Source: Pseudolabrys sp.
Lineage (GTDB): Bacteria; Pseudomonadota; Alphaproteobacteria; Rhizobiales; Xanthobacteraceae
Length of the DNA: 64,000 bases
NCBI GenBank assembly: GCA_030655215.1
Contig: JAURVZ010000071.1
Coordinates: 83,980-147,979, forward strand
Direction: 5' to 3'
Positions 11,446 through 34,954 of the stretch are shown here, one piece after another. The notes under the pieces are model-generated. The model was not told the DNA's origin. It did not search any database and was given only the letters and a program-made list of their open reading frames with translations. How positions within the stretch are numbered: the stretch's first letter is position 1; every line of letters starts with the position of its first letter. The position numbers and the translations under genes were made by a program.

Positions 11446-11530
11446 CGGAACCCAAGCTCCAGATGTTGGAGGTGACTAAGGCTGGATAAGAGCCTTTGGG
11501 CTACAAAGTTCCTGTGTTTCCGGGCTTAAA

Positions 11531-11566
11531 ACGCACAACGCGCGGAATTCCCGCGCGTTGCATATT
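11531..11566 (-). terminator. Probable rho-independent terminator of the 11589-12410 gene
   Basis: Minus strand: CAACGCGCGG-GAATT-CCGCGCGTTGTGCGTTTTAAG. Confidence 0.55.
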
Positions 11567-11588
11567 TTATCAGCAAGACTGCCAAAGA

Positions 11589-12410: not shown

Positions 12411-12521
12411 ACAAACTCCTTTGCCCGGCAGACGAGTGTCTGTCGGGTACATGACTTAAGGAAACTGGAGGCGTTAGGTTCCCCACTCTATCTGAGCTTG
12501 CCGCTCGATAGGTGGTAATCT

Positions 12522-13496: not shown

Positions 13497-14285
13497 ATGG
13501 GTACGATTGAGAGCAATCCTCTGGGAAGACTACTTGGTGACGACGAGCCGTCGCCGGTCACCATCACCAACGCGACTGGCAACTCACCATTGCTGATCGT
13601 CGCTGACCATGCCGGAAACCGCATACCGCGTGTGCTTGGCAACCTCGGCGTTTCCGACAGCGAACGGGCACGGCATATCGGCCTGGACATCGGCATTGCT
13701 GGCGTTTGCCGCCATATGGCCGCGGCGTTCGATGCCTGCCTGATCCAGCAGATCTATTCGCGTCTGGTGATCGATTGTAACCGGCCACCGGGTTCGGCGA
13801 CGTCAATGCCGGAGATCAGCGAGTCGACGCCGATCCCGGGCAATGTCGGTCTGAGCGAGGCCGACAAGGCGGCGCGCATCGCCGAGATATTCACACCGTA
13901 TCACGAGGCCGTCGCCGCGGAAATCGACCGTCGCCTGCAAGGCACCTTGCCGGTGGCCTTGGTGGCCATGCACTCATTCACGCCGACTTATAAAGGCGTC
14001 GACAGACCATGGCATGCCGGCGTGCTCTATAATCGCGATGCCCGCTTTGCGCAGAAGCTGCGCTTCCTGCTCGAGCGCGAGACGCAACTGGTGGTCGGCG
14101 ACAACGAGCCCTACAGCGTCGATGATGAGACCGACCATACCATTCCAGTGCATGGCGAGCGTCGCAAGCTGCACCACATCGCCATCGAGATCCGGCAGGA
14201 CTTGATCACCGAGGAAGCCGGGCAGATGGAGTGGGCGGAGCGGTTGGGGCGGCTTCTTCCCTTGGCGTATTCCGAGCTTCTCTAA
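13497..14285 (+). CDS. N-formylglutamate amidohydrolase family protein
   Basis: LLIVADHAGNRIPR, HIGLDIG, VDRPWHAGVLYNRDARF, HIAIEIRQDLI. Confidence 0.88.
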   Translation: MGTIESNPLGRLLGDDEPSPVTITNATGNSPLLIVADHAGNRIPRVLGNLGVSDSERARHIGLDIGIAGVCRHMAAAFDACLIQQIYSRLVIDCNRPPGSATSMPEISESTPIPGNVGLSEADKAARIAEIFTPYHEAVAAEIDRRLQGTLPVALVAMHSFTPTYKGVDRPWHAGVLYNRDARFAQKLRFLLERETQLVVGDNEPYSVDDETDHTIPVHGERRKLHHIAIEIRQDLITEEAGQMEWAERLGRLLPLAYSELL

Positions 14286-16132: not shown

Positions 16133-17326
16133 GTGGAGCTGGTTCTTTGGGAAATGGTCAGTGCGAGCGTGCGCTGGCTGCATGTCGTCGCCGGCATCGC
16201 CTGGATCGGCAGCTCATTCTATTTCATTCATCTCGACCTCAGCCTGAGGCCAAACCCGGCTTTGCCGAACGGCGTCAAGGGCGAAGCCTGGCAGGTGCAT
16301 GGCGGCGGCTTCTACCACATGGTCAAGTATCTGGTGGCGCCGGCCAAGATGCCGGACCACCTGACCTGGTTCAAATGGGAGGCCTATGCGACGTGGCTTT
16401 CCGGCTTCAGCCTGCTGGTCATCGTCTATTACATGAACGCCGACATGTACCTGATCGACAAGCAGGTGCTGGACATGACCGCGCCGGTCGGCGCTGCGGT
16501 CGCGTTCTTCAGTCTGCTGGCAGCGTGGCTGGTTTATGAAGGGCTGTGCCGTTCGCCGATCGGCAAGAACGAACTGGCGCTGTCGCTGATCGGCTATGTT
16601 TTCCTGGTCGCGCTGACATACGCCTTCACGCATGTGTTCAGCGGCCGCGGCGCCTTCACGCAAATCGGCGCGCTGATCGGCACCATCATGGTAGCGAATG
16701 TGTTCGTCGTCATCATGCCGTATCAGCGCAAGACCGTTGCCGCTCTGATCGCGGGCGAAAAGCCGGACCCGGCCTGGGGTGGCTATGGCAAGCAGCGCTC
16801 GATTCACAATAACTACCTGACGCTGCCGGTCGTCTTCCTGATGATCAGCAACCACTATCCGTTTTTCTTCGCCACCAAATATAACTGGGTCATCGTCGCC
16901 ATTGTCCTGATCGTCGGGCCGCTGATCCGGCATTTCTACAATGCCCGTCATGAAGGCAAGGAGAGCCCGTGGTGGACATGGTTTGTCGTCGTCTTCGCCA
17001 TGATGGTGGTTGCGTGGCTGTCGAGCACCGGACCAAAGGGGCAGACCGGCGCGTTGCCGGCAACGCCGACCTTCGCGCAGGTCAATGAGATCGTCATGTC
17101 ACGCTGCAGCATGTGCCATGCGTCGGAGCCGGTCTGGGCCGGCATGGCCGCGGCGCCGAAGGGCATAAGGCTCGACGATCCGGAAACGATCAAGCTGCAT
17201 GCCAAGGTCATCGCCATCAATGCGGCGCTGTCGAGCGCCATGCCGCCGGGGAACGTCACGGCGATGACGATGGATGAGCGGCAGGTGCTCGCGGCGTGGT
17301 TCGAAGCCGGCGCGCCTGCGAAATGA
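16133..17326 (+). CDS. puuD: Membrane urate oxidase/hydroxylase PuuD with C-terminal cytochrome c domain
   Basis: RWLHVVAGIAWIGSSFYFIHLD multi-TM start; C-terminal haem-binding CSMCH (MSRCSMCHASEPVW). Gene neighbourhood is purine degradation. Confidence 0.9.
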   Translation: MELVLWEMVSASVRWLHVVAGIAWIGSSFYFIHLDLSLRPNPALPNGVKGEAWQVHGGGFYHMVKYLVAPAKMPDHLTWFKWEAYATWLSGFSLLVIVYYMNADMYLIDKQVLDMTAPVGAAVAFFSLLAAWLVYEGLCRSPIGKNELALSLIGYVFLVALTYAFTHVFSGRGAFTQIGALIGTIMVANVFVVIMPYQRKTVAALIAGEKPDPAWGGYGKQRSIHNNYLTLPVVFLMISNHYPFFFATKYNWVIVAIVLIVGPLIRHFYNARHEGKESPWWTWFVVVFAMMVVAWLSSTGPKGQTGALPATPTFAQVNEIVMSRCSMCHASEPVWAGMAAAPKGIRLDDPETIKLHAKVIAINAALSSAMPPGNVTAMTMDERQVLAAWFEAGAPAK

Positions 17327-18207
17327 CGTTTTCCCTCGAGCAACTCAATGCGCTCAGCGAAGCCGACTTCACCGCGGCGCTTGGCGACATTTTCGAGCAT
17401 TCGCCGTGGGTGGCGAAAGCGGCGTGGGCCAAGCGGCCGTTCGCCAGTTTGGCTGCATTGCATGAGGCGATGGTGGCGGCTGTGCGCGCCGCGCCAGACG
17501 ATGCCAAGCTGACATTGGTGAAGGCGCATCCCGATCTCGCCGGCAAGGCGGCGCGCGCCGGCGCGCTCACCGGCGACTCGACCAACGAACAGGCCAGCGT
17601 CGGCCTCGACCGCCTCAACGACGCCGAATATGTCCGTTTCCAGCAACTCAACGATGCCTATCAGGCTAAATTCGGCATTCCGTTCATTGTTTGCGTGCGG
17701 CGGCATACCAAGGACTCGATCCTCAACGAATTCGAGCGCCGGCTGACGCAAGCCAAGGGCGACGCGTTCGAGACCGCGCTCGGCGAGATCTTCCGTATCG
17801 CCGCGCTGCGGCTCGACCAGCGCGTCACCGCCGATGTCCGGTTGCCGCTGCATGGCCGCCTGTCGACGCATGTGCTCGACACCCATGGCGGCATGCCGGC
17901 GGCCAATGTGCCGGTCGAACTATGGGAATTGTCGCGCGACGGCGCGGCGCGGCTGATCGCGCAGACCGTCACGAACAAAGACGGCCGCACCGATGCACCG
18001 CTGATCGCCGGACGGCCGGTGCCGATCGGCAGCTATGAATTGCGCTTCGCGATTGCCGGCTACTTCAGGGCGCAAGGTGTTCCGCTACCGGAACCGCCGT
18101 TCCTCGACATCGTGCCCATCCGCTTTTCGGTGCTTGAAGCGGAGGCGCACTACCACGTGCCGCTGGTAGCGACGCCATGGGCCTATTCGACCTACCGCGG
18201 CAGCTAG
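17323..18207 (+). CDS. Bifunctional OHCU decarboxylase (N-terminal) / 5-hydroxyisourate hydrolase (C-terminal) fusion
   Basis: N-terminal LIKE: VKAHPDLAGKAARAGALTGDSTNEQASVGLD, FGIPFIVCVRRHTKDSIL. C-terminal LSTHVLDTHGGMPAANVPVELWEL...YHVPLVATPWAYSTYRGS with the terminal YRGS hallmark. ATGA overlap with puuD. Confidence 0.94.
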   Translation: MTFSLEQLNALSEADFTAALGDIFEHSPWVAKAAWAKRPFASLAALHEAMVAAVRAAPDDAKLTLVKAHPDLAGKAARAGALTGDSTNEQASVGLDRLNDAEYVRFQQLNDAYQAKFGIPFIVCVRRHTKDSILNEFERRLTQAKGDAFETALGEIFRIAALRLDQRVTADVRLPLHGRLSTHVLDTHGGMPAANVPVELWELSRDGAARLIAQTVTNKDGRTDAPLIAGRPVPIGSYELRFAIAGYFRAQGVPLPEPPFLDIVPIRFSVLEAEAHYHVPLVATPWAYSTYRGS

Positions 18208-18274
18208 AATCCGGTGTATGGCGCGAGAATAGGCAGCACCTGCCGCTATTTGGTACCTTCAATTGCCACAGAAA

Positions 18275-18292
18275 TTGGCACACTATTGGCAT
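18275..18292 (+). promoter_or_regulatory. Candidate sigma-54 (-24/-12) promoter for the purine ABC transporter operon
   Basis: TTGGCACACTATTGGCAT: GG (18277-78)-N10-GC (18289-90), close to TGGCAC-N5-TTGCA; gene start 65 nt further on. Confidence 0.5.
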
Positions 18293-18356
18293 GTCATGAC
18301 GGTGGTGCAGTTTGCGGGGGCAAGCGCGCCTCTAACCGTCCAGGGCCAGCGTATCG

Positions 18357-19934
18357 ATGGTGAATGCGGTGCCAGTGAGTGAGCCTTCCGCGCGCGCGCC
18401 GCTGCTGCAAGCCATCGCGATGACCAAACGCTACGGCACCTTCGCCGCCAACGATTCCATCGATCTCGACCTCTATGCCGGCGAAATCCACGCGCTGCTC
18501 GGCGAAAACGGCGCTGGCAAGTCGACCTTGGTCAAGACCATGTACGGCCTGATCCAGCCGACCTCCGGTGAACTGCGCTGGATGGGCGAAAAGCTGGAAC
18601 TCACCGGCCCGTCCGATGCCCGCTCGCAGGGCATCGCCATGGTGTTCCAGCATTTCTCGCTGTTCGACAATTTGACGGTGGCGGAAAACGTCGCGCTCGG
18701 GCTCGACGGCGTCGAGAGCTTTGCCGCCATGTCAGCGCGGCTGGCGCAAGTGTCGCGCGACTACGGCCTGCCGCTCGATCCGAACCGCGAAGTCTGGCGG
18801 CTGTCGGTCGGCGAGCGCCAGCGCATCGAGATCGTGCGCGCGCTGATGCAAAACCCGAAGCTGCTCATTCTCGACGAGCCAACCGCGGTGCTGACGCCGC
18901 AGGAGGCCGATCAGCTTTTCACGGTTCTCTTCCGCTTGAAGAGCGAAGGCCGCGCACTCCTGTACATCAGTCATAAACTCGATGAGGTGAAGCGTCTGTG
19001 CGACACCGCCACCATCCTGCGCGGCGGCAAGAAAATCTCGACCTGCGACCCGCGCAAGGAAACCGCGGCATCATTGGCGCGCATGATGGTCGGCGCCGAA
19101 ATCGGCGAAGTGAAAGCCACCGGCGCCCGCGCCACTACGATCCCGCGCCTGCTGATCCAAGATTTGTCGCTGACGCCGGACGATCCGCATGGCGTGCACC
19201 TCAAGAACATCTCGATCGAGGTTAAAGGCGGCGAAATCCTCGGAATCGCCGGAGTCGCCGGCAACGGCCAGGACGAACTGTTCGCGGCGTTGTCGGGCGA
19301 GCGCCTCGCGCCGCGCGAGGGCAATATCGTCATCGACAGCAACGCCGCCGGCGGGCTTTCCGTGACGGCGCGCCGCAAGCTCGGCGCCGCCTTCGTGCCG
19401 GAAGAACGGCTCGGCCACGGCACTGCGCCGCGCATGAAGCTGTCGGAGAACGCGCTGCTGACCGGCCACGCCGCCAGCCACATGGTCAAACACGGCTTTG
19501 TCGACAAACCGAAGACGCTCGAGACAGTCGACAAGACCACCAAGACCTTCGACGTGCGCAAGGCCAAGCGCGATCCGGAAGCGGTCAGCCTGTCCGGCGG
19601 TAATCTGCAGAAATTCATCGTCGGCCGCGAGATCTTGCGCGAGCCGGGCGTGCTGGTCGTCAGCCAGCCGACCTGGGGCGTCGATGCTGGCGCCGCCGCT
19701 GTCATCCGCCAGGCGTTGCTCGATCTGTCGAGCCGCGGCAGCGCCGTGCTGGTGATCAGCCAGGATCTCGATGAACTGGCCGAAATCGCCGACCGCATCG
19801 CCGTCATGTTCCACGGCCATTTGTCGCCGCCGGTTGCCGCGCATGAAGCGACGCGCGAGAAGCTCGGCCTGTTGATGGGCGGCGCTTCCGCAGAAGCCGA
19901 TGCTAGGGAGGCCTCTCATGCAATTGGTGCTTGA
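18357..19934 (+). CDS. ABC transporter ATP-binding protein (two ATPase domains; purine/nucleoside BMP-type importer)
   Basis: LLGENGAGKSTLVKTMYG, LSVGERQRIEIVRALMQ, second domain LSGGNLQKFIVGREI. Confidence 0.9.
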   Translation: MVNAVPVSEPSARAPLLQAIAMTKRYGTFAANDSIDLDLYAGEIHALLGENGAGKSTLVKTMYGLIQPTSGELRWMGEKLELTGPSDARSQGIAMVFQHFSLFDNLTVAENVALGLDGVESFAAMSARLAQVSRDYGLPLDPNREVWRLSVGERQRIEIVRALMQNPKLLILDEPTAVLTPQEADQLFTVLFRLKSEGRALLYISHKLDEVKRLCDTATILRGGKKISTCDPRKETAASLARMMVGAEIGEVKATGARATTIPRLLIQDLSLTPDDPHGVHLKNISIEVKGGEILGIAGVAGNGQDELFAALSGERLAPREGNIVIDSNAAGGLSVTARRKLGAAFVPEERLGHGTAPRMKLSENALLTGHAASHMVKHGFVDKPKTLETVDKTTKTFDVRKAKRDPEAVSLSGGNLQKFIVGREILREPGVLVVSQPTWGVDAGAAAVIRQALLDLSSRGSAVLVISQDLDELAEIADRIAVMFHGHLSPPVAAHEATREKLGLLMGGASAEADAREASHAIGA

Positions 19935-21009
19935 GAAACGCGTCGAGCGCTCGACCAAGATCGCCATCCTGTCGCCGCTGCTGGCTATCGCGTTGACGCT
20001 CGTGACGATGTCGATCCTGTTCGCCATTCTCGGCAAGAACCCGGTCATGGCGCTCTATGTCTATTTCGTCGAGCCGCTGACCGACTCTTTCACGCTGATG
20101 GAAATAGCCGTGAAGGCAACGCCGCTGGTGATGATCGCCGTCGGCCTCTCGCTCTGTTATCTCGCCAATGTCTGGAATATCGGCGCCGAAGGCCAGTTCA
20201 TTATGGGCGCCGTATGCGGCAGCTATCTTGCTGTCGTCACGAACGGCACCGATCCCGGTCCCTGGGTGCTGCCGGCGATGCTGGTGATGGGCGCTGCCGG
20301 CGGCGCGCTGTGGGCAATGATCCCGGCTTTGTGCAAGGTTCGCTACGGCGCCAACGAAATCCTCACCTCGCTGATGCTGGTCTATGTCGCCGATTTGATC
20401 ATGGACTATCTGGTGCGCGGGCCATGGCGCGACCCGAAAGGCATGAACTTCCCGACCACGGCCTCGTTCGATCCGGTGGCGACGGTGCCGACCTTGTTCG
20501 AGACCGGGCGCATCCATTGGGGCGCGCTGGCGGCACTGATCGTCGTGGCGCTGGCAACCGTCATGCTCGGGCGAACGATCAAGGGTTTTGAAATCCGTGT
20601 TGTCGGCGCGGCGCCGCGCGCGGCGCGCTTTGCCGGTTTCAATTCAAAGAAGCTGGTGGTGTTCACCTTCGCCGTGTCGGGTGCGCTCGCCGGCCTTGCC
20701 GGCATTATCGAAGTCGCCGGCCCGGTCGGCGTGCTGCAGCCGGGCATTTCGCCGGGCTATGGCTTCACCGCCATCATCGTCGCGTTTCTTGGTAGGCTGA
20801 ACCCCGTGGGCATTCTCATCGCCGGATTGTTCCTGGCGCTGACTTTCATCGGCGGCGAAGGCGCGCAGATCTCGATGAAGATCCCGCTCGATCTCACCAA
20901 GGTGTTCCAGGGCATCTTGCTGTTCTACGTGCTCGCCTGCGATTCCTTGATCCTCTACCGCATTCGCCTGATCGCTTCACCCAAGAAGGCCGCACATGGG
21001 ACTGCTTGA
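19918..21009 (+). CDS. ABC transporter permease (nucleoside/purine type)
   Basis: Multi-TM; NVWNIGAEGQFIMGAVCGSYLA typical of the BMP-type permease family; ATG at 19918 overlaps the ATPase gene. Confidence 0.9.
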   Translation: MQLVLEKRVERSTKIAILSPLLAIALTLVTMSILFAILGKNPVMALYVYFVEPLTDSFTLMEIAVKATPLVMIAVGLSLCYLANVWNIGAEGQFIMGAVCGSYLAVVTNGTDPGPWVLPAMLVMGAAGGALWAMIPALCKVRYGANEILTSLMLVYVADLIMDYLVRGPWRDPKGMNFPTTASFDPVATVPTLFETGRIHWGALAALIVVALATVMLGRTIKGFEIRVVGAAPRAARFAGFNSKKLVVFTFAVSGALAGLAGIIEVAGPVGVLQPGISPGYGFTAIIVAFLGRLNPVGILIAGLFLALTFIGGEGAQISMKIPLDLTKVFQGILLFYVLACDSLILYRIRLIASPKKAAHGTA

Positions 21010-21916
21010 AGCCATCATCATCTCGGTGATCGCCGCCTCGACGCCATTGCTGTTGGCGGCGGCGGGCGAACTCGTTGTCGAGAGATCCGGCGTTTTGAAT
21101 CTCGGCACCGAAGGCATGATGATCATGGGGGCGGCCTGCGGCTTTGCCGGTTGCTGGCTGACCGGCTCGACGTTCATCGGCGCGCTGTGCGGCATTGCCG
21201 CCGGCTGCGCGCTGTCGCTGGTGTTCGCGGCGCTGACCTTGGGCCTTGCGGTCAACCAGGTCGCCGCCGGACTGGCGCTGACCATTCTCGGCGTCGGCCT
21301 GTCCGGCCTGATCGGCGCCGGCTTTGTCGGCGAGAAGATCACTCCCGCTCCTCACCTTTATCTGCCGGTCCTGACCGGCCTGCCCTTCATCGGCAAGATA
21401 TTGTTCGGCCAGGATGGCTTCGTTTATTTCTCGGTCGCTTTGGTCATCGGCATCTGGTGGTTCCTGTACCGCACCCGCGCCGGGCTGGTGCTGCGCGCCG
21501 TCGGCGACAGCCACACCTCGGCGCATGCGCTCGGCTATCCGGTGCTGAAAATCCGTTTGCTCGCCGTGCTGTTCGGCGGCGGCTGCGCTGGGCTCGGCGG
21601 CGCCTTCCTGCCGCTGGCTTATACGCCCTTCTTCATTCCCGGCATGACCGCCGGCCGCGGCTGGATCGCGCTGGCTTTGGTCGTGTTCTCATCCTGGATG
21701 CCGGGCCGGCTTGCCGCCGGCGCTTACCTGTTCGGCGCCGTCACCATCATGCAACTGCATGCGCAGGCTTTCGGCCTCGGCATTCCGTCGCAACTGATGA
21801 CCGCGCTGCCCTATCTCGCCACCGTCATTGTGCTGGTGCTGATCTCGCGGGCACGCGGCAGCGCCGGCTCCGTCGCGCCTGCGTCACTGGGAATTGTTTT
21901 TGTGCCCGACCGCTAA
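20996..21916 (+). CDS. ABC transporter permease (nucleoside/purine type)
   Basis: SGVLNLGTEGMMIMGAACGF; multi-TM; overlaps the preceding gene. Confidence 0.9.
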   Translation: MGLLEAIIISVIAASTPLLLAAAGELVVERSGVLNLGTEGMMIMGAACGFAGCWLTGSTFIGALCGIAAGCALSLVFAALTLGLAVNQVAAGLALTILGVGLSGLIGAGFVGEKITPAPHLYLPVLTGLPFIGKILFGQDGFVYFSVALVIGIWWFLYRTRAGLVLRAVGDSHTSAHALGYPVLKIRLLAVLFGGGCAGLGGAFLPLAYTPFFIPGMTAGRGWIALALVVFSSWMPGRLAAGAYLFGAVTIMQLHAQAFGLGIPSQLMTALPYLATVIVLVLISRARGSAGSVAPASLGIVFVPDR

Positions 21917-21954
21917 GCTTTGAGAATTCACCGTCTGACAAACCGGAGTTGACC

Positions 21955-23034
21955 ATGAAAAAACTGATGATGACCGCAGCCGTCGCCGCCTTGACGATCG
22001 TGAGCACGGGCTTTAGTGCCTCTGCCGCCGATAAACTGAAGATCGGCTTTATCTATCTTGGACCGGTCGGCGATCTCGGCTGGACCTATATGCACGAACT
22101 CGGCCGCCAGATGATGGTCAAGGAGCTCGGCGACAAGGTCGAGACCACCTATCTCGAAAACGTCAGCGAAGGCCCGGATTCGGAGCGCTCGATCGAGCAG
22201 CTTGCCCGCACCGGCCACCAACTCATCTTCACCACGTCATTCGGCTACATGGACCCAACGCTGAAGGTCGCCAAGAAATATCCCAAGATCAAGTTCGAGC
22301 ACGCCACCGGCTTCAAGCGCGCCGACAACATGGGCACCTACTCCGGCAAATTCCATGAAGGCCGCTATATCCAGGGCGTGATCGCCGGCAAGATGTCGAA
22401 GACCGGCACGCTCGGCTACATTGCCTCGTTCCCGATCCCGGAAGTCATCGCCGGCATCAACGCAACGATCCTCGGCGCGCAGACCACGAATCCGAACATC
22501 AAGCTCAAGGTCATCTGGGTTAACACCTGGTTCGATCCGGGCAAGGAAGCGGACGCCGCCAAGGCGCTCGCCGACCAGGGTGTCGACGTCATCATGCAGC
22601 ACACCGACTCGCCGGCGGCGATGCAAGTGGCGGCGCAGCGCGGCATCATGGCGTTTGGCCAGGACTCGGACATGATCAAGTTCGGTCCGAAAACGCAGCT
22701 CACGGCAATCGTCAACAATTGGGGCCCGTATTACACGCGCGCCGCCAAGGCGGCTCTCGACGGCACATGGAAGGCCGAAGACACCTGGGATGGCCTGAAG
22801 GAAAAGATGGTGCTGATGGCCGCCTATACCAACATGCCGGACGACGTGAAGGCTTTGGCCGAGAAGACCGAAGCAGAGATCATTGCCGGCACGCTGAACC
22901 CGTTCAAGTGCCCGGTGCTCGGGCAAGACGGCAAGCCGGTTGAGTGCAAGGGCGGCGCCAATCTCGACAACGGCCAGATCCTCGGCATGAACTTCTATGT
23001 GAAGGGTGTCGACGACAAGATCCCGGGCAAGTAA
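21955..23034 (+). CDS. BMP family ABC transporter substrate-binding protein
   Basis: MKKLMMTAAVAALTIVSTGFSASAADKLKIGFIYLGPVGDLGWTYMHELGRQ; IIFTTSFGYM-like motif LIFTTSFGYMDPTLKVAKKYP. Confidence 0.92.
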   Translation: MKKLMMTAAVAALTIVSTGFSASAADKLKIGFIYLGPVGDLGWTYMHELGRQMMVKELGDKVETTYLENVSEGPDSERSIEQLARTGHQLIFTTSFGYMDPTLKVAKKYPKIKFEHATGFKRADNMGTYSGKFHEGRYIQGVIAGKMSKTGTLGYIASFPIPEVIAGINATILGAQTTNPNIKLKVIWVNTWFDPGKEADAAKALADQGVDVIMQHTDSPAAMQVAAQRGIMAFGQDSDMIKFGPKTQLTAIVNNWGPYYTRAAKAALDGTWKAEDTWDGLKEKMVLMAAYTNMPDDVKALAEKTEAEIIAGTLNPFKCPVLGQDGKPVECKGGANLDNGQILGMNFYVKGVDDKIPGK

Positions 23035-23041
23035 CCGGACC

Positions 23042-23072
23042 AACGCGGGAGGCTTCGGCCTCCCGCGTTTCT
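23042..23072. terminator. Rho-independent terminator between convergent genes
   Basis: AACGCGGGAGGC-TTCG-GCCTCCCGCGTTTCTT. Confidence 0.8.
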
Positions 23073-23082
23073 TCTCATGCGA

Positions 23083-24420
23083 CTATGCTTGCAGATTCCG
23101 CGCCGCGGCCTGATGCCGCCGCATCAAACCGGCAAGATCGAGCCCGGGAATGGCGCCATCTTGAACCGTCCAGTTGCCATTGATCATCACCCGGTCGGCG
23201 CGATGCGCGCCGCACAGCACCAGCGCCGCCAGCGGATCGCCGTGACCGGAAAAGCGCAATTCATCCAGCTTGAACATGGCCAGATCGGCGCGCTTGCCGA
23301 CGGCTATTTCGCCCAACTCCGGACGGCCGACGCAAGCCGCCGAGCCTTTGGTCGCCCAGCGCAACGCGTCTTTGTGGCTGACGGCGTTAGCGCCGTAACG
23401 CGCCCGCTGCACCAGGAAGGCCGCGCGCACTTCCTGCATCAGATTCGACTCGTCGTTCGAGGCCGAGCCGTCGACGCCAAGGCCGATGCTGACGCCGGCC
23501 TTTTCCAGATCGCAAACCGGGCAGCAGCCCGACGCCAGCGTTTGATTGCTGCAGGCGCAATGGCTGATCGACACGCCGCCTTTGGCAAGGCGCGGCATTT
23601 CATCGGCACTGAAATGAATGCCGTGCGCCAGCCAGGTGCGGCTGTTGAGCCAGCCGCAATCCTCGAGATAATCGAGCGGCCGGACGCCATAGATCTGCTC
23701 GCAGAATTTGTTTTCGTCCTCGGTCTCTGCCAGATGGGTATGCAGGCGGACGTCGAGCTTCGCTGCAAGATCGGCCGTGGACTTCATCAGCGCCGTGGTG
23801 ACGGAGAACGGCGAGCAAGGCGCCAGCGCGATCTGCGTCATCGCCGCCTCGCCGCGCTCATGGTAGCGATCGACCAGCCGTTTGCTGTCGGCGAGGATGG
23901 CGTCCTCGTCCTGCACCACCGAGTCCGGCGGCAGGCCGCCGTCGCGCTCGGACAGGTTCATCGAGCCGCGCGTCAGCAAGGTGCGGATGCCAAGCTTTTT
24001 GGCCGCGGCAATTTCAATATCGATGCCGTCTTCGAGGCCCTTCGGGAAGACGTAATGATGATCGGTGGTGGTGGTGCAGCCGGACAGCATCAGTTCGGCC
24101 ATCGCCACGGTGACCGCCGCATCGAGCGCATCGGGCGTCATCTTGGCCCAGATCGGATAAAGCGCCTTCAGCCACGGAAACAGTTCGCGGTCGAGTGCCG
24201 CAGGGACAGCGCGCGTCAGTGTCTGGTAGAAGTGATGATGGGTGTTGATCAGGCCGGGAATGACGACATGGTCGCGCGCCTCGAACGGCGCGGCGGTGGT
24301 CTTGGGCTCGGTGCCCTTAGCCACCAGTTCTACGATGGCGCCATTGGCGACAACAACGCCACGCTCGGCATCGTCGGCCAGAATGGCCATCGGGTCCTTG
24401 ATCCAGATCGCTTCGGTCAT
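23083..24420 (-). CDS. 8-oxoguanine deaminase (amidohydrolase superfamily)
   Basis: GLINTHHHFYQTLTRA, SGCTTTTDHHYVFP, HTHLAET, GLGVDGSASNDESNL. Confidence 0.88.
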   Translation of the reverse strand: MTEAIWIKDPMAILADDAERGVVVANGAIVELVAKGTEPKTTAAPFEARDHVVIPGLINTHHHFYQTLTRAVPAALDRELFPWLKALYPIWAKMTPDALDAAVTVAMAELMLSGCTTTTDHHYVFPKGLEDGIDIEIAAAKKLGIRTLLTRGSMNLSERDGGLPPDSVVQDEDAILADSKRLVDRYHERGEAAMTQIALAPCSPFSVTTALMKSTADLAAKLDVRLHTHLAETEDENKFCEQIYGVRPLDYLEDCGWLNSRTWLAHGIHFSADEMPRLAKGGVSISHCACSNQTLASGCCPVCDLEKAGVSIGLGVDGSASNDESNLMQEVRAAFLVQRARYGANAVSHKDALRWATKGSAACVGRPELGEIAVGKRADLAMFKLDELRFSGHGDPLAALVLCGAHRADRVMINGNWTVQDGAIPGLDLAGLMRRHQAAARNLQA

Positions 24421-24478
24421 GCGCTTATTCCTTCGCCGTCATCCTACCGAGTCTTGCAAGACCGGGACCAGCACTCTC

Positions 24479-24568
24479 CTCCGTTCGTCCCCGCGAAAGC
24501 GGGGACCCAGGAGCAACAAGCACGGAGTTTGCAGCCCTGGATTCCCGCTTTCGCGGGAACGAACGGAG
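24479..24568. repeat. REP-like inverted repeat (33-bp arms) in a divergent promoter region
   Basis: CTCCGTTCGTCCCCGCGAAAGCGGGGACCCAGG (24479-24511) / CCTGGATTCCCGCTTTCGCGGGAACGAACGGAG (24536-24568), 3 mismatches. Confidence 0.88.
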
Positions 24569-24590
24569 TGTGTGGTAGCAGGTCTGCCCC

Positions 24591-25409
24591 ATGGACCTGA
24601 ACACAATCAAAGAAGTGGCGCGGCCGAAGGCGCGCGGTGAGTTGAGCGGCTGGCGCGACGGCGATGCCTTCCTCGGCGGCGGCACCTGGCTGTTTTCCGA
24701 GCCGCAGCCGAAACTGACGCGGCTGGTCGATCTCGCGGCGCTTGGCTGGCAACCGCTCACCGTGAGCGCCGAGGGACTTGAGATCGCCGCCACCTGCACG
24801 GTGGCGCAACTCGACGCCCTAACGCTGCCGGTCGAATGGACCGCCGCGCCGTTGATCGGCCAATGCTGCCGCGCCTTTCTCGCCTCGTTCAAGGTGTGGA
24901 ACGCAGCCACTGTCGGCGGCAATATTTGTCTGGCTTTGCCGGCCGGGCCGATGATTTCGCTGACCGCGGCGCTTGATGGCGAAGCCTTGCTGTGGGCGGC
25001 AGATAGCAGCGAGCGGCGCCTGAAGATAGTTGATGTCGTTACAGGCCCGCAGAAGAATGCGCTGCGGCCCGGCGAAGTCATGCGCAGCATCTCTGTGCCC
25101 GCCGCCGCGCTAACAACACGCACGGCGTATCGGCAGGTTTCGCTGGCCAATCATGGCCGCTCCGGCGCGCTGGTCATTGGCACGCGTGCGGCGAATGGCT
25201 CGTTCGCATTGACGATTACCGCGTCAACGCCGCGGCCGATCCGACTTCGCTACGACGCTCTGCCCACGATCGACACCTTGCGCGCCGACATCGAAGCTGC
25301 GGTCGATGTTTGGTACGACGACATTCACGGACTGCCAGCATGGCGCCGCCACATGACCTTGCACTTCGCGCAAGAAATTCTCGCTGAACTCAGCGCGGGC
25401 GCACGATGA
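24591..25409 (+). CDS. FAD-binding subunit of xanthine dehydrogenase-family enzyme
   Basis: FLGGGTWLFSEPQPKLTRLVDL, KVWNAATVGGNICLALPAGPMISLTAALDGEA. Confidence 0.85.
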   Translation: MDLNTIKEVARPKARGELSGWRDGDAFLGGGTWLFSEPQPKLTRLVDLAALGWQPLTVSAEGLEIAATCTVAQLDALTLPVEWTAAPLIGQCCRAFLASFKVWNAATVGGNICLALPAGPMISLTAALDGEALLWAADSSERRLKIVDVVTGPQKNALRPGEVMRSISVPAAALTTRTAYRQVSLANHGRSGALVIGTRAANGSFALTITASTPRPIRLRYDALPTIDTLRADIEAAVDVWYDDIHGLPAWRRHMTLHFAQEILAELSAGAR

Positions 25410-28123
25410 CCTTCAACGTCAACGGCAAAGCCTTCGACGAACAGCCTGCCGCCGGGCAGTGCCTGCGAACCTTCCTGCGTGAACTCGGTCATTTCGGCGT
25501 CAAGAAAGGCTGCGACGCCGGCGATTGCGGCGCCTGCACGGTTTATCTCGACGGCGAGCCGATCCATTCCTGCCTGATGCCGGCGTTCCGCGCCGAGGAC
25601 CGCGAGGTCACCACCATCGAAGGCCTCGCGAACGGCAACGAGCTGCATCCGATGCAGCGCGCCTTCCTTGACGCGCAGGGTTTCCAATGCGGCTTCTGCA
25701 CCGCCGGCATGATCATGACCGCAGCGGCGCTCAATCAGGCGCAGCGCGCCGACCTGCCGCAAGCCTTGAAGGGCAATCTGTGCCGCTGCACCGGCTATCG
25801 CGCCATCGAGGATGCGATTGCCGGCAAGCGCGACGCCGCCGAGCCGCAGGCCGGCTGCGGCGTCGGCCACAATGTCCCTGCGCCGGCTGGGCCGGATGTC
25901 GTCACCGGCAAGGCGCGCTTCACGCTCGATGTCGGGATTGAGGGCCTGCAGCACATCAAGCTGCTGCGCTCGCCGCATGCGCATGCGCGCATTCGCGGCA
26001 TCGACAAGAGCGAAGCGTTGAAAGTGCCGGGCGTCATCGCCGTGCTGACGCATGAGGACGCGCCGAAGACCGCCTTCTCGACCGCGCGGCATGAAACGCC
26101 GGAGATCGATGCCGACGATACTGTCGTGCTCGACACTGTTGTCCGCTACATCGGTCAGCGCGTTGCAGCTGTTGTTGCGAGCAGTGAAGCTGCGGCCGAA
26201 GAAGGATGCCGCAAACTCAAGGTCGATTACGACATTCTGCCCGCCGTGTTCGATCCGGAACAGGCGATGCAGCCCGGCGCGCCGCTGTTGCACGGCGACA
26301 AGGGCCCGGAAGCGCGCATCTACGATCCCCAGCAAAACCTCATCCACGCCGTGCACAGTGAATTCGGCAGCGCCGAGGCGGGCTTTGCCGAGGCCGAGGC
26401 CATTCACGAAGGCACTTATTTTGTGCCGCGCGTGCAGCATGCCCATCTGGAAACCTTGTGCGCCATTGCCTGGATTGACGCCGGCGGCCGGCTGAACATC
26501 CGCTCCAGCACGCAGGTGCCGTTCCTGACCCGAAAGGAACTGGCGCGCGTCTTCGGCCTCGACGAAGACGCGGTGCGCGTGTTCTGCGAGCGCGTTGGCG
26601 GCGGCTTTGGCGCCAAGCAGGAAATGATGGTCGAGGACATTGCCGCGCTCGCCGCGCTGAAAACCGGCAAACCGGTGGTGATCGAATTCACCCGCGAGGA
26701 GCAGTTCATCGCCGCGACGACGCGGCATCCGATGCAAGTGCGCGTCAAGATCGGCGCCAAGAGCGACGGCACACTGTCCGCGATGCAACTCCATGTCGTG
26801 TCCAATACCGGCGCCTATGGCAATCACGGCGCGCCGGTGCTGGAGCATGCCTGTTCGGAAGCGATCAGCGTCTATCGATGCGCCAACAAGAAAGTCGATG
26901 GCTACGCCGTCTACACCAACACCGTGCCGGCCGGCGCCTTTCGCGGCTACGGCCTGCCGCAGACGCAATTCGCCGTCGAATCGGCGATGGATGAAGTCGC
27001 TCGCATGCTCGGGATCGACGGCATCGATTTCCGCCGCCGCAATGTCATCAAGCGTGACGAGCCGATGATCGGCGCCCATGAAGCATCCGATGACATGATC
27101 CATGGCAGTTATGGCCTCGATCAATGTCTCGATCTGGTCGAGGCGGCGATGCGCCGCGACGCGCCGGTCACGCTGCCGCCGGAATGGCGCATCGGCGAAG
27201 GCACGGCGCTGACCATGATCGCCACCGTGCCGCCGGGCGGCCATTACTCCGATACATATATCTGGCTGGAGAGCGACGGCTCCTACGCCATGACCATTGG
27301 CACCGCCGAATTCGGCAACGGCACGACGACCGTGCATCGCCAGGTTGCCGCCAGTGTGCTCGGTGCGCTGCCATCGCAAATTACGTTCAAGCAATCCGAC
27401 ACCGACCACGGCGGCCATGACACCGGCGCCTATGGTTCGACCGGCACGGTGATCGGCGGCCGGGCCACCGAGAATGCCGCGCAAGCCTTGCGCGACGTGG
27501 TGCTCGACTTCGCGGCGAAGCACAGCGGCGCGTCGCGCTCCGACTGCACGCTCGCCGATGGCGCAGTGATGTGCGGTGATAAAGCCATCGCGCTCGCCGA
27601 TTTGCGCCAGGCCGCCACGATCGCCGGCGTCGTGCTGTCGGCACACGGCACTGCCAATGGCATTCCGCGTTCGACCGCCTTCAACGTGCAGGGATTCCGC
27701 ATCGCGGTGAATCGGATCAGCGGCGAAATCAAGATCCTCAAGAGCGTGCAGGCCGCCGACGCCGGCACCGTCATCAACCCGATGCAATGCCGCGCCCAGA
27801 TCGAAGGCGGCGTCGCCCAGGCCATCGGCGCCGCCCTGTTCGAGGAAATCGTCATCGGTGGTGAAGGCCGCGTCACGAACCCTACGTTCCGCACCTATCA
27901 CATACCGTCATACGCCGATATTCCGCGCACCGAAGTGCTGTTCGCCGACACGAGCGACACGTTGGGCCCGTTCGGCGCCAAGTCGATGAGCGAGAGCCCC
28001 TACAATCCGGTGGCCGCCGCGCTCGGCAACGCCATCCGCGACGCCACCGGCGTGCGCATGCATCGCCTGCCATTCAAGCCTGACCGCGTTCACGCCGCTT
28101 TGACGGCCGCTGCAACTGGCTAA
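25406..28123 (+). CDS. Xanthine dehydrogenase-family protein: N-terminal [2Fe-2S] domains fused to Mo-binding subunit
   Basis: [26 protein letters not shown]...[11 protein letters not shown]; Mo domain [46 protein letters not shown] overlap with the FAD gene. Confidence 0.9.
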
Positions 28124-28265
28124 CCAATTAAGCAAGTATCGCTGGCAAACGGCCCGTTTGCAGGCCTAAATGGCGCTGCGGCCCAAGAATTGCATGAATA
28201 TTGGGCACCGAATTAGCCCTAACAGCGATACACTAAAGACCAGCGTTCAACAGTAGCGGTAACCC

Positions 28266-31200
28266 ATGTCGATCCTCGCCGGCCTGCACCACGTCACCCG
28301 CTACATTTACGACAAGCCGATCGCGCTGGGCCCTCAGATCGTGCGCCTGCGCCCGGCGCCGCACGGCCGCACCCGCATTCCTAGCTATTCGCTGAAGGTG
28401 AAGCCGGAAAACCATTTCGTGAACTGGCAGCAGGACCCGCACGGCAACTGGCTGGCGCGTTTTGTTTTCCCGGAGAAGACCACCGAATTTTCCGTGACGG
28501 TCGATTTCCTCGCCGACCTCGAAGTCGTCAATCCGTTCGACTTCTTCGTCGAGCCGTTCGCCGAGCAATGGCCGTTCGAGATGCCGGCCGACGTCAAGGA
28601 AGACCTGCTCGCTTATGTCGATCCGGAGCCGGCCGGGCCGCTGCTGCAGACGCTGATCGACTCGATTTCGCGCGAAAAGACCGGCACGGTCAACTTCCTG
28701 GTCGATCTCAACCAGCGCATCCAGTCGATTGTCAAATATATCGTGCGTCTCGAGCCTGGCGTGCAGACGCCGGAAGAGACGCTGATCTCCGGCTTCGGCT
28801 CGTGCCGAGACTCGGCCTGGCTGCTGACGCAGTTGCTGCGCCATATCGGCCTGCCGGCGCGTTTCGTCTCCGGCTATCTCATTCAGTTGAAGCCGGACAT
28901 CAAGTCGCTCGACGGCCCGAGCGGCACCGATCATGACTTCACCGATTTGCATGCCTGGACGGAAGTCTATTTGCCCGGCGCCGGCTGGATCGGTTTCGAT
29001 CCGACCTCCGGCCTGCTGTGCGGCGAAGGTCATATCCCTGTCGCGGCCACGCCGCATTATCGCTCTGCCGCGCCGATCAATGGCCTGGTCGAGCCGAGCG
29101 GCGTCGATTTCGAATTCGAGATGAAGGTCGAGCGCATCGCTGAACGGCCGCGCGTCACCGCGCCGTTCTCGAACGAGGCTTGGGCCGCGCTCGACGCGCT
29201 CGGCGAAAAGGTCGATGCCGATCTCCTCGCCGGCGACGTCCGCCTCACCATGGGTGGCGAGCCGACTTTCGTGTCGATCGACGACTATCAATCCGCCGAA
29301 TGGAATACGTCGGCGCTCGGTCCGCAGAAACTCATCCGCGCCAATGATCTGATCCAGCGCCTGCATGATCGGTTCGCGCCGGGCGCGCTGCTGCATTACG
29401 GCCAGGGCAAATGGTATCCCGGCGAAGAACTGCCGCGCTGGGCGTACTCATTATACTGGCGCCGCGATGGCCAACCGATCTGGCAGAACCTCGCTCTTAT
29501 CGCCCGCGAGAAGACGACGCCGGAGCCGACTTCACTCGACGCGCAAGCGTTTGCCGAAAATGTCGCCGCACGCCTCGGCCTCAAGCGCGATTTCGTGCAG
29601 CCGCTTTATGAAGACCCGGCTGATCGCTTGCTCAAGGAAGGAGCGCTGCCGCCGAATATCGATCCGGGCAATCCGAAGATCGATGACATTGCCGAACGCG
29701 GCCGCATCCTGCGCGCTTTCGAGCGTCACCTCACCCATCCGACCGGCTTTGTGCTGCCGGTGCAGCACTGGAATGCGCAGGCGAAAACCGGCTGGCTCAG
29801 CGAGTTGTGGCAGACGCGCCGCGGTCGTCTGTTCCTGATCCCCGGCGATTCACCGGCCGGCTTCCGTTTGCCGCTCAGCCAACTGCCTTACTTCATCGCC
29901 GCCGACTACCCGCATCTGGTGCCCGGCGATCCTATGGACGAGCATCCCGAGCTGCCGCCCGCGCCCGCCATCGCCGCCAAGCCCCGCAGCGAGAAGAAAG
30001 CTGAGACGCTCGTTGCGCAGGCAGGCACGCGCTCACTCGCCGCGCTGCAAGCCTCAGGCATTCCGGTGCGCACCGCGCTAACCATCGAGACCCGTGGCGG
30101 CCGGCTCTGCGTCTTCATGCCGCCGACCGAGAAGCTGGAAGAATATCTCGAGCTGCTGGCGGCGATCGAAGCCGTAGCCGCCGAGATGAAAATCCCGGTG
30201 CATATTGAGGGCTACACCCCGCCGAGCGACCCGCGCATCGACGTCATCCGCGTCACGCCCGATCCCGGCGTCATCGAGGTCAACGTGCAGCCGGCATCGA
30301 GCTGGCGCGAACAGGTGAACATCACGCGCGGCCTGTACGAAGACGCGCATCACTCGCGCCTCGGCACCGACAAGTTCATGATCGACGGCCGCCACACCGG
30401 CACCGGCGGCGGCAATCACGTCGTGCTCGGCGGCCGACAAGCCGCGGACAGTCCGTTCCTGCGCCGGCCCGACCTGCTGAAGAGCCTGCTGATCTTCTGG
30501 CAGCGTCATCCGTCACTCTCGTACCTGTTCTCCGGCCTGTTCATCGGGCCGACCAGCCAGGCGCCGCGCATGGACGAAGCGCGCACCGACATGCTGTACG
30601 AACTGGAGATCGCCTTTGCGAAGGTGCCGGCGCCCGATAAAGGCGAAGCACCGCCGCCGTGGCTGGTCGATCGCCTGTTCCGCAACATCCTCGTCGACGT
30701 CACCGGCAACACGCACCGCACCGAGATCTCAATCGACAAGCTGTTCTCGCCGGACAGCGCCACCGGCCGCCTCGGCCTCGTCGAATTCCGCGGCTTCGAG
30801 ATGCCGCCGGATGCGCGCATGTCGCTGGCCCAGCAATTGCTGTTGCGCGCGCTGGTCGCCAAGTTCTGGCGCGAGCCGCTCGATGGTCCACTGGTGCGCT
30901 GGCAGACGGCGCTGCACGACAAATTCATGCTCGAGCACTTCGTTTGGGAAGACTTCCAGGACGTGCTGCGCGACCTGAAAGCCTCCGGTTACGACTTCGA
31001 CCCGGTCTGGTTCGACGCGCAGCGGCAATTCCGCTTCCCGCGCTATGGCGCGGTCGAGCATGGCGGCGTCAAGATGGAAATCCGTCACGCGCTAGAGCCG
31101 TGGCATGTGCTCGGCGAAGAAAACACGGCCAGCGGCACATCGCGCTTTGTCGACTCCTCAGTCGAGCGTTTGCAGATCAAGGTCGAAGGCTTCGTCGAAG

Positions 31201-31577
31201 GCCGTCACGTCATCACCTGCAACGGCCGCAGGCTGCCGCTGCGCTCGACCGGCCGCTCCGGCGAGTTCGTCGCCGGCGTCCGCTTCAAGGCCTGGAAGCT
31301 CGCCTCGGCGCTGCATCCGACGCTCGATGTCGATGCGCCGCTGACCTTCGATATTGTCGATAGCTGGAGCCGCCGGTCGCTGGGCGGTTGCGTCTATCAT
31401 GTGGCGCATCCCGGGGGCCGTAATTACGAGACATTCCCTGTGAACTCCTACGAAGCGGAGGCCAGACGGCGCGCGCGATTCGAGGATATCGGCCATACTC
31501 CCGGCCGCTTCGAACCGGCTGAACAGGGCCGCTCGCTTGAATACCCGACCACGCTCGATTTGCGGCGCGCGATATAA
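28266..31577 (+). CDS. Transglutaminase-DUF2126 large protein
   Basis: 1103 aa; [77 protein letters not shown]-terminal DUF2126-type [31 protein letters not shown]. Confidence 0.93.
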
Positions 31578-31598
31578 CGGAAGTTAAAACCTGACCTG

Positions 31599-34082
31599 AT
31601 GGCAGCCCTGCCCGACAAGACAAGCAAGATCGAGAACGGCGGCCTGGACCAGTTTGTGTTGGGGTACAAGCCGTTGCCCGGCATCGTCGATGAGATGATG
31701 GACGGCAATGGCAAAGTGCGCGCGCACTGGAAGCCGTTGCTGTCGATGCTGGCCGAGCTTGGGCCGGAAGAGATCAACCGCCGCTTTACCTCGGCCGACC
31801 GCTACCTGCGCGATAGCGGCGTGTTCTACCGCGTCTATGAAGACCCGGCCGGCGTCGAGCGCCCCTGGCCGCTCAGCCACATTCCGCTGCTGATCGAGCC
31901 GACCGAATGGAAGGCACTTGAGGCCGGTCTGATCCAGCGCGCCAATCTGTTGGAAGCGGTGCTGGCCGATGCCTATGGCCCGGGGCAGTTGACCAAGGAT
32001 GGCCGCCTGCCTGCCGCGCTCGTCGCCGGCAATCCGGAATTCCTGCGGCCTCTCGCCGGCGTCAAACCGCCGGGCGGCTCGCATCTTCGCTTCTATGCCG
32101 TCGATGTCGGCCGCGGGCCCGATGGCCGCTGGTGGGTGCTCGGTGATCGCGCGCAAGCGCCGTCCGGCGCCGGCTATGCGATTGAAAATCGTCTGGCGCT
32201 GTCGCGCGCCATTCCCGACATTTACGGCAAGGCACGCGTCAAGCGCGTCGCGCCCTTCTTTCAGGCGTTTCAGGCCGAGCTGTTCAACTATAACCGGCAG
32301 GACGACGCACGCGTCTGCCTGCTGACGCCCGGCCCGCTCAACGAAACCTATTTCGAGCACGCTTATCTGGCGCGCTACCTCGGCTTGCTGCTGGTCGAGG
32401 GTGAAGACCTCATCGTTCGTCAGGATGGCGTCTTCATCCGCACCATCTCCGGCCTGCGCCGCACCGAAGTGCTGCTGCGCCGTATCGATGCCGACTTTGC
32501 CGATCCGCTTGAACTCAATGCCGCATCGCGTCTCGGCGTTGCCGGGCTGGTGCAGGCGGTGCGCGACGGCAAGGTTGTCATTGCCAATGCACTAGGAGCC
32601 GGCTTTGTCGAAGCGCGCGCCATGCTCGCCTTTTTGCCAGCTCTGGCTCCGCATGTGCTCGGGCAAGAATTGCTGCTGCCGAATGTCGCGACATGGTGGC
32701 TTGGCCGCGCTGATGTGCGCGATGAAATTCTCGCCAAGCTCGACAGCATGATCATTGCGCCGGCCTTCGGCGCCGGTGGCGGCACGCTTGGCTCCGAACT
32801 CGACGACGATCAGCGCGGCAAGCTGCTGCAGGCGATCAATGACCGCCGCATCGATTACGTTGCGCAAGAGGCGGTAACCTTATCGAGCACGCCAGTGTGG
32901 CGCGAAGGCAAGCTGCAGCCGCGGCCGTTCTCGTTGCGGCTTTATCTCGCCAAAGTCGGCGATGGCTGGCAGGTGATGCCCGGCGGCTTTGTCCGCATCG
33001 CCGACAATCCCGATGCGCGCGCCCTCAGCCTGCAAGGCGGCGACGCCACGGCCGATGCTTGGGTATTGTCCGACGGGCCTGTCTCCGCCGCAACCTTGCT
33101 GCCGCAGCCGGAGCGCGTCACCATTCAGCGGCAGACCGGCATGTTGCCGAGCCGCGCCGCCGACAATCTGTTCTGGGTCGGCCGCTATGTCGAACGCGCC
33201 GAGGCGACTTTGCGGCTGGTGCGCGCATTGCTCAACCGCATCGCCGATGCCGGCGATGTCGGCGTGCCGATCGTCAGCGCGATCACCGATCTGTTGCAGG
33301 ACTGGAGCGCCGCGCCAATCGACACCGGCCGCACGCCGCAAATGGTGGCGCGCTCGGTGCTGACCGGCGCCGACTTCAGCGGTTCGTTGCCGCGCCTCGT
33401 CAACAATGCGCGCGCGGCGGCCTCCGTTATTCGTGAGCGCTTCTCGCCGGATGCCTGGCGCGCCATTGACGATCTGGTCGCGCTGATCGAATTGTCGCTG
33501 GCGCCCGGCCCGGTCGAGCGGGCGATGGTAGAACGCGTTGAAGCCTCGCTGCGCATCATTTCGTCTTTCTCCGGCCTTGCGCAGGAGAACATGACGCAGC
33601 TCGCCGGCTGGCGCTTTCTTGAACTCGGGCGCCGCATCGAGCGCGCGGTACAGACCTGCCGTTTCGTGCGCAACTTTGCCGATGGCAGAGGGCCGGATGG
33701 CGGCCTCGATGTGTTGCTTGAGCTCGCCGACAGCCAGCTCACTTATCGCCAGCGTTATGTGATGATCGCGGCGCTGGCGCCTGTGGTCGATCTGGTCATG
33801 CTCGACCCGAACAATCCGCGCTCGGTCGCCTATCAGGTCGACCGCATTGAAACACATCTTGCTGATTTGCCGAGAGGCCAGACCGCCGCCGGACGGCTGA
33901 CGCCGGTGCAGCAAGTCGCGGCATCGATTGCCTTGCGCTTCCGCACCACCAACGCCAACAATTTCGACCGCGCTTTGATCATCGAGATCGAAGACAGTCT
34001 GATGAAGTTGTCGGAGGCGATTGCTTCCGCCTATCTCACGCATATCCAGCGCACGCCGGCAACGTGGGATGCGCCGGCATGA
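31599..34082 (+). CDS. Circularly permuted ATP-grasp (COG2308 type) fused to C-terminal alpha-E domain (COG2307 type)
   Basis: N-terminal YKPLPGIVDEMMDGNGKVRAHW, LTPGPLNETYFEHAYLARYLGLLLVEGEDL; C-terminal MLPSRAADNLFWVGRYVERAEATLRLVRALLNR. Confidence 0.92.
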   Translation: MAALPDKTSKIENGGLDQFVLGYKPLPGIVDEMMDGNGKVRAHWKPLLSMLAELGPEEINRRFTSADRYLRDSGVFYRVYEDPAGVERPWPLSHIPLLIEPTEWKALEAGLIQRANLLEAVLADAYGPGQLTKDGRLPAALVAGNPEFLRPLAGVKPPGGSHLRFYAVDVGRGPDGRWWVLGDRAQAPSGAGYAIENRLALSRAIPDIYGKARVKRVAPFFQAFQAELFNYNRQDDARVCLLTPGPLNETYFEHAYLARYLGLLLVEGEDLIVRQDGVFIRTISGLRRTEVLLRRIDADFADPLELNAASRLGVAGLVQAVRDGKVVIANALGAGFVEARAMLAFLPALAPHVLGQELLLPNVATWWLGRADVRDEILAKLDSMIIAPAFGAGGGTLGSELDDDQRGKLLQAINDRRIDYVAQEAVTLSSTPVWREGKLQPRPFSLRLYLAKVGDGWQVMPGGFVRIADNPDARALSLQGGDATADAWVLSDGPVSAATLLPQPERVTIQRQTGMLPSRAADNLFWVGRYVERAEATLRLVRALLNRIADAGDVGVPIVSAITDLLQDWSAAPIDTGRTPQMVARSVLTGADFSGSLPRLVNNARAAASVIRERFSPDAWRAIDDLVALIELSLAPGPVERAMVERVEASLRIISSFSGLAQENMTQLAGWRFLELGRRIERAVQTCRFVRNFADGRGPDGGLDVLLELADSQLTYRQRYVMIAALAPVVDLVMLDPNNPRSVAYQVDRIETHLADLPRGQTAAGRLTPVQQVAASIALRFRTTNANNFDRALIIEIEDSLMKLSEAIASAYLTHIQRTPATWDAPA

Positions 34083-34954
34083 TCTACGACATCCGCCAGA
34101 CGACGACCTGCACCTATGCAACGCCGGTGACGAATGCGTTTCATGTCCTGCGGCAGACGCCGGTCAATCGTCCCGGCCAGCGTGTGCAGGTGTCGTCGCT
34201 GCGCATCGAACCGGAGCCGGAGAGCTGGCGCGAAGGCCACGACTTCTTCGGCAACCGGCTGACCTGGGTTTCGCTTGAAGATGCGCATGACACACTGGAA
34301 GTGAAAGTGTCGGCACGCATTGCCGTCGACGCCTTCGTGGCGCCGGCCGATGTCTCGCGCACATGGGAAAGCGTGCAGGAGGAAGTGTTCGCCTCCGCCA
34401 ATACCGGGCCGACAGCGCCGGTGCACTTCCTGTTTCCGAGCCGCATGGTGTCGCTCGATCCGGAGATCCGCGATTACGCACGCACCAGCTTTCCGCCCGG
34501 CCGCGCCATCCTCGAAGCGGCGACCGAGCTGACGCACCGGATCAAGACCGACCTAACCTATGACTCTCATGCCACGACGGTGACAACGACGCCGCCCATG
34601 TCGTTCGCGCTGCGGCGCGGCGTCTGCCAGGATTTCGCGCACATCATGATCTCGGGCCTGCGCGGCATCGGCCTGCCAGCAGCCTATGTCAGCGGCTATT
34701 TGCGCACCCACCGCCCGGAAGGCAGCACGCGCCTGCAAGGCGCTGATGCCATGCATGCCTGGGTGCTGGTCTGGTGCGGCACTGATACCGGCTGGGTCGG
34801 TTTCGATCCGACCAATGACATGATCGCCTCCGACGAGCACATCGTGCTGGCTGTCGGCCGCGACTACACCGATGTCGCGCCGATGGATGGCGTGATCTTC
34901 GTCTCCGGCGGCCAGCGCATCGATGTCGGCGTCAGCGTCACGCCGGTCACCTGA
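34079..34954 (+). CDS. Transglutaminase family protein (canonical Cys/His present)
   Basis: YDIRQTTTCTYATPVTNAFHVLRQTP, RGVCQDFAHIMISGLRGIGLPAAYVSGYLR, AMHAWVLVWCGTDTGWVGFDPTND; ATGA overlap with the previous gene. Confidence 0.92.
   Translation: MIYDIRQTTTCTYATPVTNAFHVLRQTPVNRPGQRVQVSSLRIEPEPESWREGHDFFGNRLTWVSLEDAHDTLEVKVSARIAVDAFVAPADVSRTWESVQEEVFASANTGPTAPVHFLFPSRMVSLDPEIRDYARTSFPPGRAILEAATELTHRIKTDLTYDSHATTVTTTPPMSFALRRGVCQDFAHIMISGLRGIGLPAAYVSGYLRTHRPEGSTRLQGADAMHAWVLVWCGTDTGWVGFDPTNDMIASDEHIVLAVGRDYTDVAPMDGVIFVSGGQRIDVGVSVTPVT

Follow-up and report, generated by a model that had tools for sequence, protein, structure and literature searches.

The operon and its genes

What might a bacterium make, and under what conditions, with a set of genes that joins putative peptide ligases to transglutaminases? 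The question is raised by a stretch of 64,000 nucleotides from Pseudolabrys sp. (referred to here as the window), in which three tightly packed genes lie on the forward strand. Gene 1 (28266..31577, 1103 residues) encodes a transglutaminase (residues 1–275) fused to DUF2126, a putative amidoligase (residues 278–1100). Gene 2 (31599..34082, 827 residues) is a fusion of a circularly permuted ATP-grasp ligase to an alpha-E helical domain, and gene 3 (34079..34954, 291 residues) encodes a stand-alone transglutaminase-fold cysteine enzyme. An earlier note on this DNA described a 21-bp gap followed by an ATGA overlap, and the coordinates and domain calls confirm this packing. The ATG at 34079, which overlaps the stop codon of gene 2, is the natural start codon of gene 3; the ORF finder had given the GTG at 34064.

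Pfam assigns Bact_transglu_N (PF08379), Transglut_core (PF01841) and DUF2126 (PF09899) to gene 1, the last of these at 1313 bits against a cut-off of 27. Gene 2 matches PF14403, PF04174 and PF04168, with 457 bits for CP_ATPgrasp_2 and 225 bits for Alpha-E, and gene 3 again matches PF08379 and PF01841. At the sequence level there is clear homology between gene 3 and the transglutaminase part of gene 1 (profile match with E 2.6e-38). Both have a triad that is invariant in alignments: C180/H229/D245 of gene 1 in 49 sequences, and the Cys-His-Asp triad C183/H226/D243 of gene 3 in 43, which bears out the earlier description of the third protein as a transglutaminase with intact catalytic residues. 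A reading of the N-termini of all three proteins found no apparent signal peptide, and all three are therefore probably cytoplasmic.

Distribution of the module

DUF2126 is present in 84 of 299 sampled genomes of Pseudomonadota, and in half (75/150) of the genomes sampled from the same family. A table was made of the neighbourhoods of 60 DUF2126 loci from Pseudomonadota, including the locus in the window. A fused ATP-grasp/alpha-E gene and a transglutaminase lie within 20 kb of DUF2126 in 53 of them, and in all seven that lack the full linked set, alpha-E is encoded in the genome. A second sample of 80 DUF2126 loci gave a similar picture. A gene set repeated in 53 of 60 loci is not a chance arrangement, and conserved linkage on the scale of a phylum supports the earlier proposal that the ligase and the transglutaminase work together. 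One locus (L079, genome G410) has a divergent DUF2126 of 713 residues that is split from its transglutaminase (300 residues), with no fused ATP-grasp nearby. N-terminal extensions at two further loci (L059 and L083) were considered as possible fusions, and were rejected as overcalled Arg-rich ORFs.

The operon contains the DUF2126-transglutaminase fusion and, next to it, a circularly permuted ATP-grasp, an alpha-E and a transglutaminase, as seen from Pfam and from the neighbourhoods, and is thus a member of a widespread module already predicted by comparative genomics. Iyer et al. are reported to have predicted such DUF2126/COG4196-ATP-grasp-alpha-E-transglutaminase systems in 2009. The domains and operon logic are identical, and nothing in the coding genes sets this operon apart from those systems. 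What the present analysis adds is a conserved sigma-54-type site, evidence from structural models for a second ligase, a count of how often the module merges with Anbu modules, and an association with Peptidase_Mx.

Besides Peptidase_Mx, no widely conserved specific neighbour was found in the 60 and 80 neighbourhoods, nor any co-conserved ORF of at least 50 residues that could encode a small peptide or carrier. The earlier note saw no carrier in the window, and the wider survey agrees with it. The adjacent precursor or Pup-like small protein that marks graspetide and pupylation systems is thus not found among conserved ORFs of this size beside the module. The hallmarks of RimK/RimB or Rlo systems are likewise not seen: the ATP-grasp is of the PF14403 family, and neither the packed genes nor the neighbouring ORFs that were scanned encode an aspartic protease.

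Two putative ligases

The AlphaFold (AF2) model of gene 2 has a pLDDT of 89.9, and its best match in Foldseek is 3n6x (E 1.5e-32). Behind it come glutathione and homoglutathione synthetases, Cp1B (a fungal amide ligase), GspS and YjfC/YgiC; most of these enzymes ligate small peptides, amino acids or polyamines. Gene 2 shares the fold of its ligase domain with the eukaryotic-type (homo)glutathione synthetases, GspS, YjfC/YgiC and Cp1B, and differs from them in its additional alpha-E domain and in its operon partners. Six residues, all of them charged or polar (D124, R198, E253, D270, D302 and N330), show no variation among the 50 fused and 26 Anbu-type ATP-grasps compared. The earlier note had considered that the ATP-grasp might lack the residues for binding Mg and ATP; fold and conservation give no sign of such a loss, at a level at which no residue is assigned to Mg or ATP. 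An ATP-grasp from an Anbu operon frees phosphate from ATP (PMC6376114).

Pfam describes the DUF2126 part of gene 1 as a putative amidoligase. In a Foldseek search with the AF2 model of gene 1 (pLDDT 83.7), transglutaminases rank first (3isr), and glutamine synthetases (GS) and GS-like enzymes are found lower in the list. Several glutamine synthetases match with a probability of 0.8–0.96 and with E of 0.02–0.07, making these matches weak but repeated. Five residues of the DUF2126 part are invariant in 49 sequences, namely E332 (in the motif GGEPTF), E671 (PGVIEVN), H718 (GTGGGNH), and E840 and R842 (LVEFR). These motifs read like GS signatures, the equivalence of residues being a matter of motif reading. 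An attempt to establish GS homology from the profile alone failed: hhalign of the DUF2126 profile against a GS alignment gave a non-significant probability of 0.15, and the sole aligned stretch was GTGGGNH against GSGMH. A GS-like fold for DUF2126 is therefore likely rather than proven. On the strength of the repeated matches of the model, the operon is predicted to carry two ligase domains, with DUF2126 probably a second, GS-like ligase. The earlier note counted one ligase and missed this probable second one.

A sigma-54-type site and nitrogen limitation

A sigma-54 (-24/-12) promoter-like site, CGGCCCAAGAATTGCA, is located at 28179..28194 on the forward strand, 87 bp upstream of gene 1. It is kept in five of five congeners, where it is among the most conserved upstream blocks. 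A scan of the 200 bp upstream of genes, using a single fixed score, was then applied to a sample from across the Pseudomonadota. Sites of this type precede 11 of 55 gene 1 starts and 36 of 1718 control genes (p 7e-8), or 9 of 53 starts when two congeners are left out (p 4e-6); both p-values are optimistic because the cut-off on the score was chosen only once the data had been inspected. On the antisense strand, a site was found at two of the 55 starts. A set of alphaproteobacterial genomes showed no enrichment (2/58 gene 1 starts), so that sigma-54-type control is restricted to particular lineages, and NtrC control across all relatives is unsupported. A similar site precedes 6 of 27 Anbu-type ATP-grasp starts, and also a second ATP-grasp operon of this genome (on contig C10, described below). 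The genome encodes four strong sigma-54 activator proteins.

Published expression data agree with what the site would predict. In Burkholderia cenocepacia, expression of the cluster I35_5080-83 is 6- to 9-fold lower in an ntrC mutant, and xanthine dehydrogenase and urate oxidase belong to the same regulon (PMC5491218). In Pseudomonas putida, nitrogen limitation induces PP_2686-2688 (PMC7801951). The B. cenocepacia cluster resembles the present operon in having DUF404/407, DUF403, a transglutaminase and a large transglutaminase protein, but its ATP-grasp and alpha-E are separate genes rather than a fusion. The large protein, I35_5083, is probably a DUF2126 protein, as judged by gene order in the related Caballeronia, where the fused module follows the separate-gene cluster. 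Taken together, the conserved upstream switch suggests that the operon is turned on when nitrogen is short.

A perfect inverted repeat lies a short way before the sigma-54-type site, at 28145–28161 (GCAAACGGCCCGTTTGC, with arms GCAAACG and CGTTTGC around GCC). It was considered and discarded: congeners do not conserve it, and the pattern with two mismatches occurs near chance frequency in the window.

Upstream of the operon, and outside the module, are genes of purine catabolism. Those immediately adjacent (23083..28123) encode 8-oxoguanine deaminase on the reverse strand, and xanthine-dehydrogenase-type FAD and Mo/Fe-S subunits on the forward strand. They form part of a larger cluster (16133–28123) that also includes urate oxidase, an OHCU decarboxylase-HIUase fusion and ABC transporter genes. 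Adjacency of purine genes to the operon is common only to two congeners (L098 and L099), and is therefore counted as suggestive context. The idea that the operon works together with the purine genes or ABC transporters on its flank was rejected for this reason, and because no specific neighbouring family is widely conserved.

Anbu and Peptidase_Mx

The earlier note saw no Anbu proteasome subunit. This holds for the window but not for the genome, in which Anbu is encoded in a separate operon on contig C48. The stretch concerned (locus L102, 7713–9836) contains an alpha-E gene that is cut off, a transglutaminase, and an Anbu in which Thr, Asp and Lys are conserved. A second stretch, at the start of contig C10 (locus L103 of this genome, G000; 1–2926), contains an ATP-grasp, an alpha-E and a transglutaminase. 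The two stretches, both at contig ends, are similar but not identical, and therefore probably represent two paralogous operons. HslVU is encoded separately in this genome.

The Anbu operons of Yersinia bercovieri and P. putida (PP_2685-2688) share with the present operon a circularly permuted ATP-grasp, an alpha-E and a transglutaminase. Here, in contrast, the ATP-grasp forms a single protein with alpha-E, the operon includes DUF2126 as a putative ligase, and the Anbu gene that membership of an Anbu operon requires lies outside the operon. Among relatives the two systems often come together: 24 of the 60 loci also carry Anbu or separate Anbu-type ATP-grasp/alpha-E genes within 20 kb, and Anbu itself is near the DUF2126 module in 10.

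The other associated family is Peptidase_Mx (PF15887), a zinc-ribbon putative zinc metallopeptidase. It adjoins 7 of the 60 DUF2126 modules and four Anbu-type operons, and in Caballeronia NK8 it sits between the two modules. The loci with Peptidase_Mx are L056, L058, L060, L067, L072, L075 and L090; L111, L113, L114 and L116; and L234. Of 45 genomes with Peptidase_Mx, 43 have DUF2126 or Anbu, a count uncorrected for shared ancestry, for which reason the p-values for co-occurrence are overstated. Physical linkage across several families is independent support for the association. No match to Peptidase_Mx was found in the Pseudolabrys genome, which is 80% complete.

A possible function

On the basis of these observations, we hypothesise that the operon encodes a cytoplasmic system, induced by nitrogen limitation, for the synthesis and trimming of a peptide or amide. 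We give this reading a probability of roughly 45%, and favour it over the alternatives considered below. Nitrogen limitation would act through sigma-54 and NtrC to turn the operon on. The GS-fold DUF2126 and the glutathione-synthetase-like ATP-grasp would convert carboxylates to acyl phosphates and couple these to amines so that a small peptide or amide is built or extended, with alpha-E as a helper. The two transglutaminase-fold cysteine domains would then remodel, transfer or release the product, and in other lineages Anbu or the zinc metallopeptidase would join the system. We infer the catalysis, the substrates, which way the transglutaminase reaction runs, that the product is a small molecule rather than a protein, and that NtrC is the activator.

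The sigma-54-type site and the published NtrC control would suit a route of nitrogen salvage. The transglutaminases would here work as amidases, releasing ammonia or amines from peptides or proteins, and the ligases would lay the nitrogen down in an amide or peptide for storage. The neighbouring purine catabolism genes, and the zinc peptidase family associated with the relatives, also fit this idea; but ligation at the cost of ATP is odd in pure scavenging, the purine linkage is limited to the genus, and no specific transporter is co-conserved, so we regard salvage as unlikely. Somewhat further down we place the tagging of proteins, where the ligases would decorate proteins with amino acids or a peptide, the transglutaminases would take these off or pass them on, and the Anbu encoded elsewhere in the genome would degrade the tagged protein. 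The Pup ligase has a GS fold, the genome has both Anbu and its operon, and Anbu and DUF2126, besides being linked in some loci, occur together in 51 genomes against 28.7 expected. However, 33 of the 84 genomes with DUF2126 have no match to Anbu, and Anbu showed neither peptidase activity nor binding to partners (PMC6376114). The earlier note put the operon forward as a candidate peptide-ligase or protein-tagging system; with no conserved carrier or small ORF of at least 50 residues beside the module, tagging finds no support.

Modification of peptides of the envelope or cell wall, by analogy with the ligase and transglutaminase enzymes of pseudomurein or with the Rlo operon, seems very improbable. 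The model of gene 1 does match the pseudomurein endoisopeptidase PeiP (rank 18 in Foldseek), and the Rlo operon of Pseudomonas (RloABC) also couples an ATP-grasp to a transglutaminase-like protein, together with a hydrolase. Against this, neither signal peptides nor membrane helices are evident here and no envelope genes are co-conserved; the Rlo operon is a distinct system, with a RimK-like ATP-grasp, an inactive membrane transglutaminase and a retropepsin (PMC12239564).

If the operon does direct the synthesis and trimming of a peptide or amide, the proteobacterial nitrogen-starvation regulon might yield an undescribed product, made by two unrelated ligases, processed by transglutaminase-fold enzymes, and handled in some lineages by Anbu and/or Peptidase_Mx. 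In this extended and rather doubtful form of the proposal, the substrate of Anbu would be that product and not an ordinary protein. The DUF2126 gene is widespread. The sigma-54/NtrC clue suggests under which condition to grow cells for tests, and Peptidase_Mx, as a candidate processing enzyme, which partner to include; both may hint at the target of this relative of the proteasome.

Other transglutaminase genes in the window

The window contains three more transglutaminase-core genes, arranged in tandem on the reverse strand (10624–13388). In two of them (10624–11445 and 11589–12452) SAW or AAW stands in place of the usual HAW motif; the catalytic His thus seems to have been lost, while Cys and Asp are retained. 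The tandem genes are adjoined by a gene of the N-formylglutamate amidohydrolase family (13497–14285).
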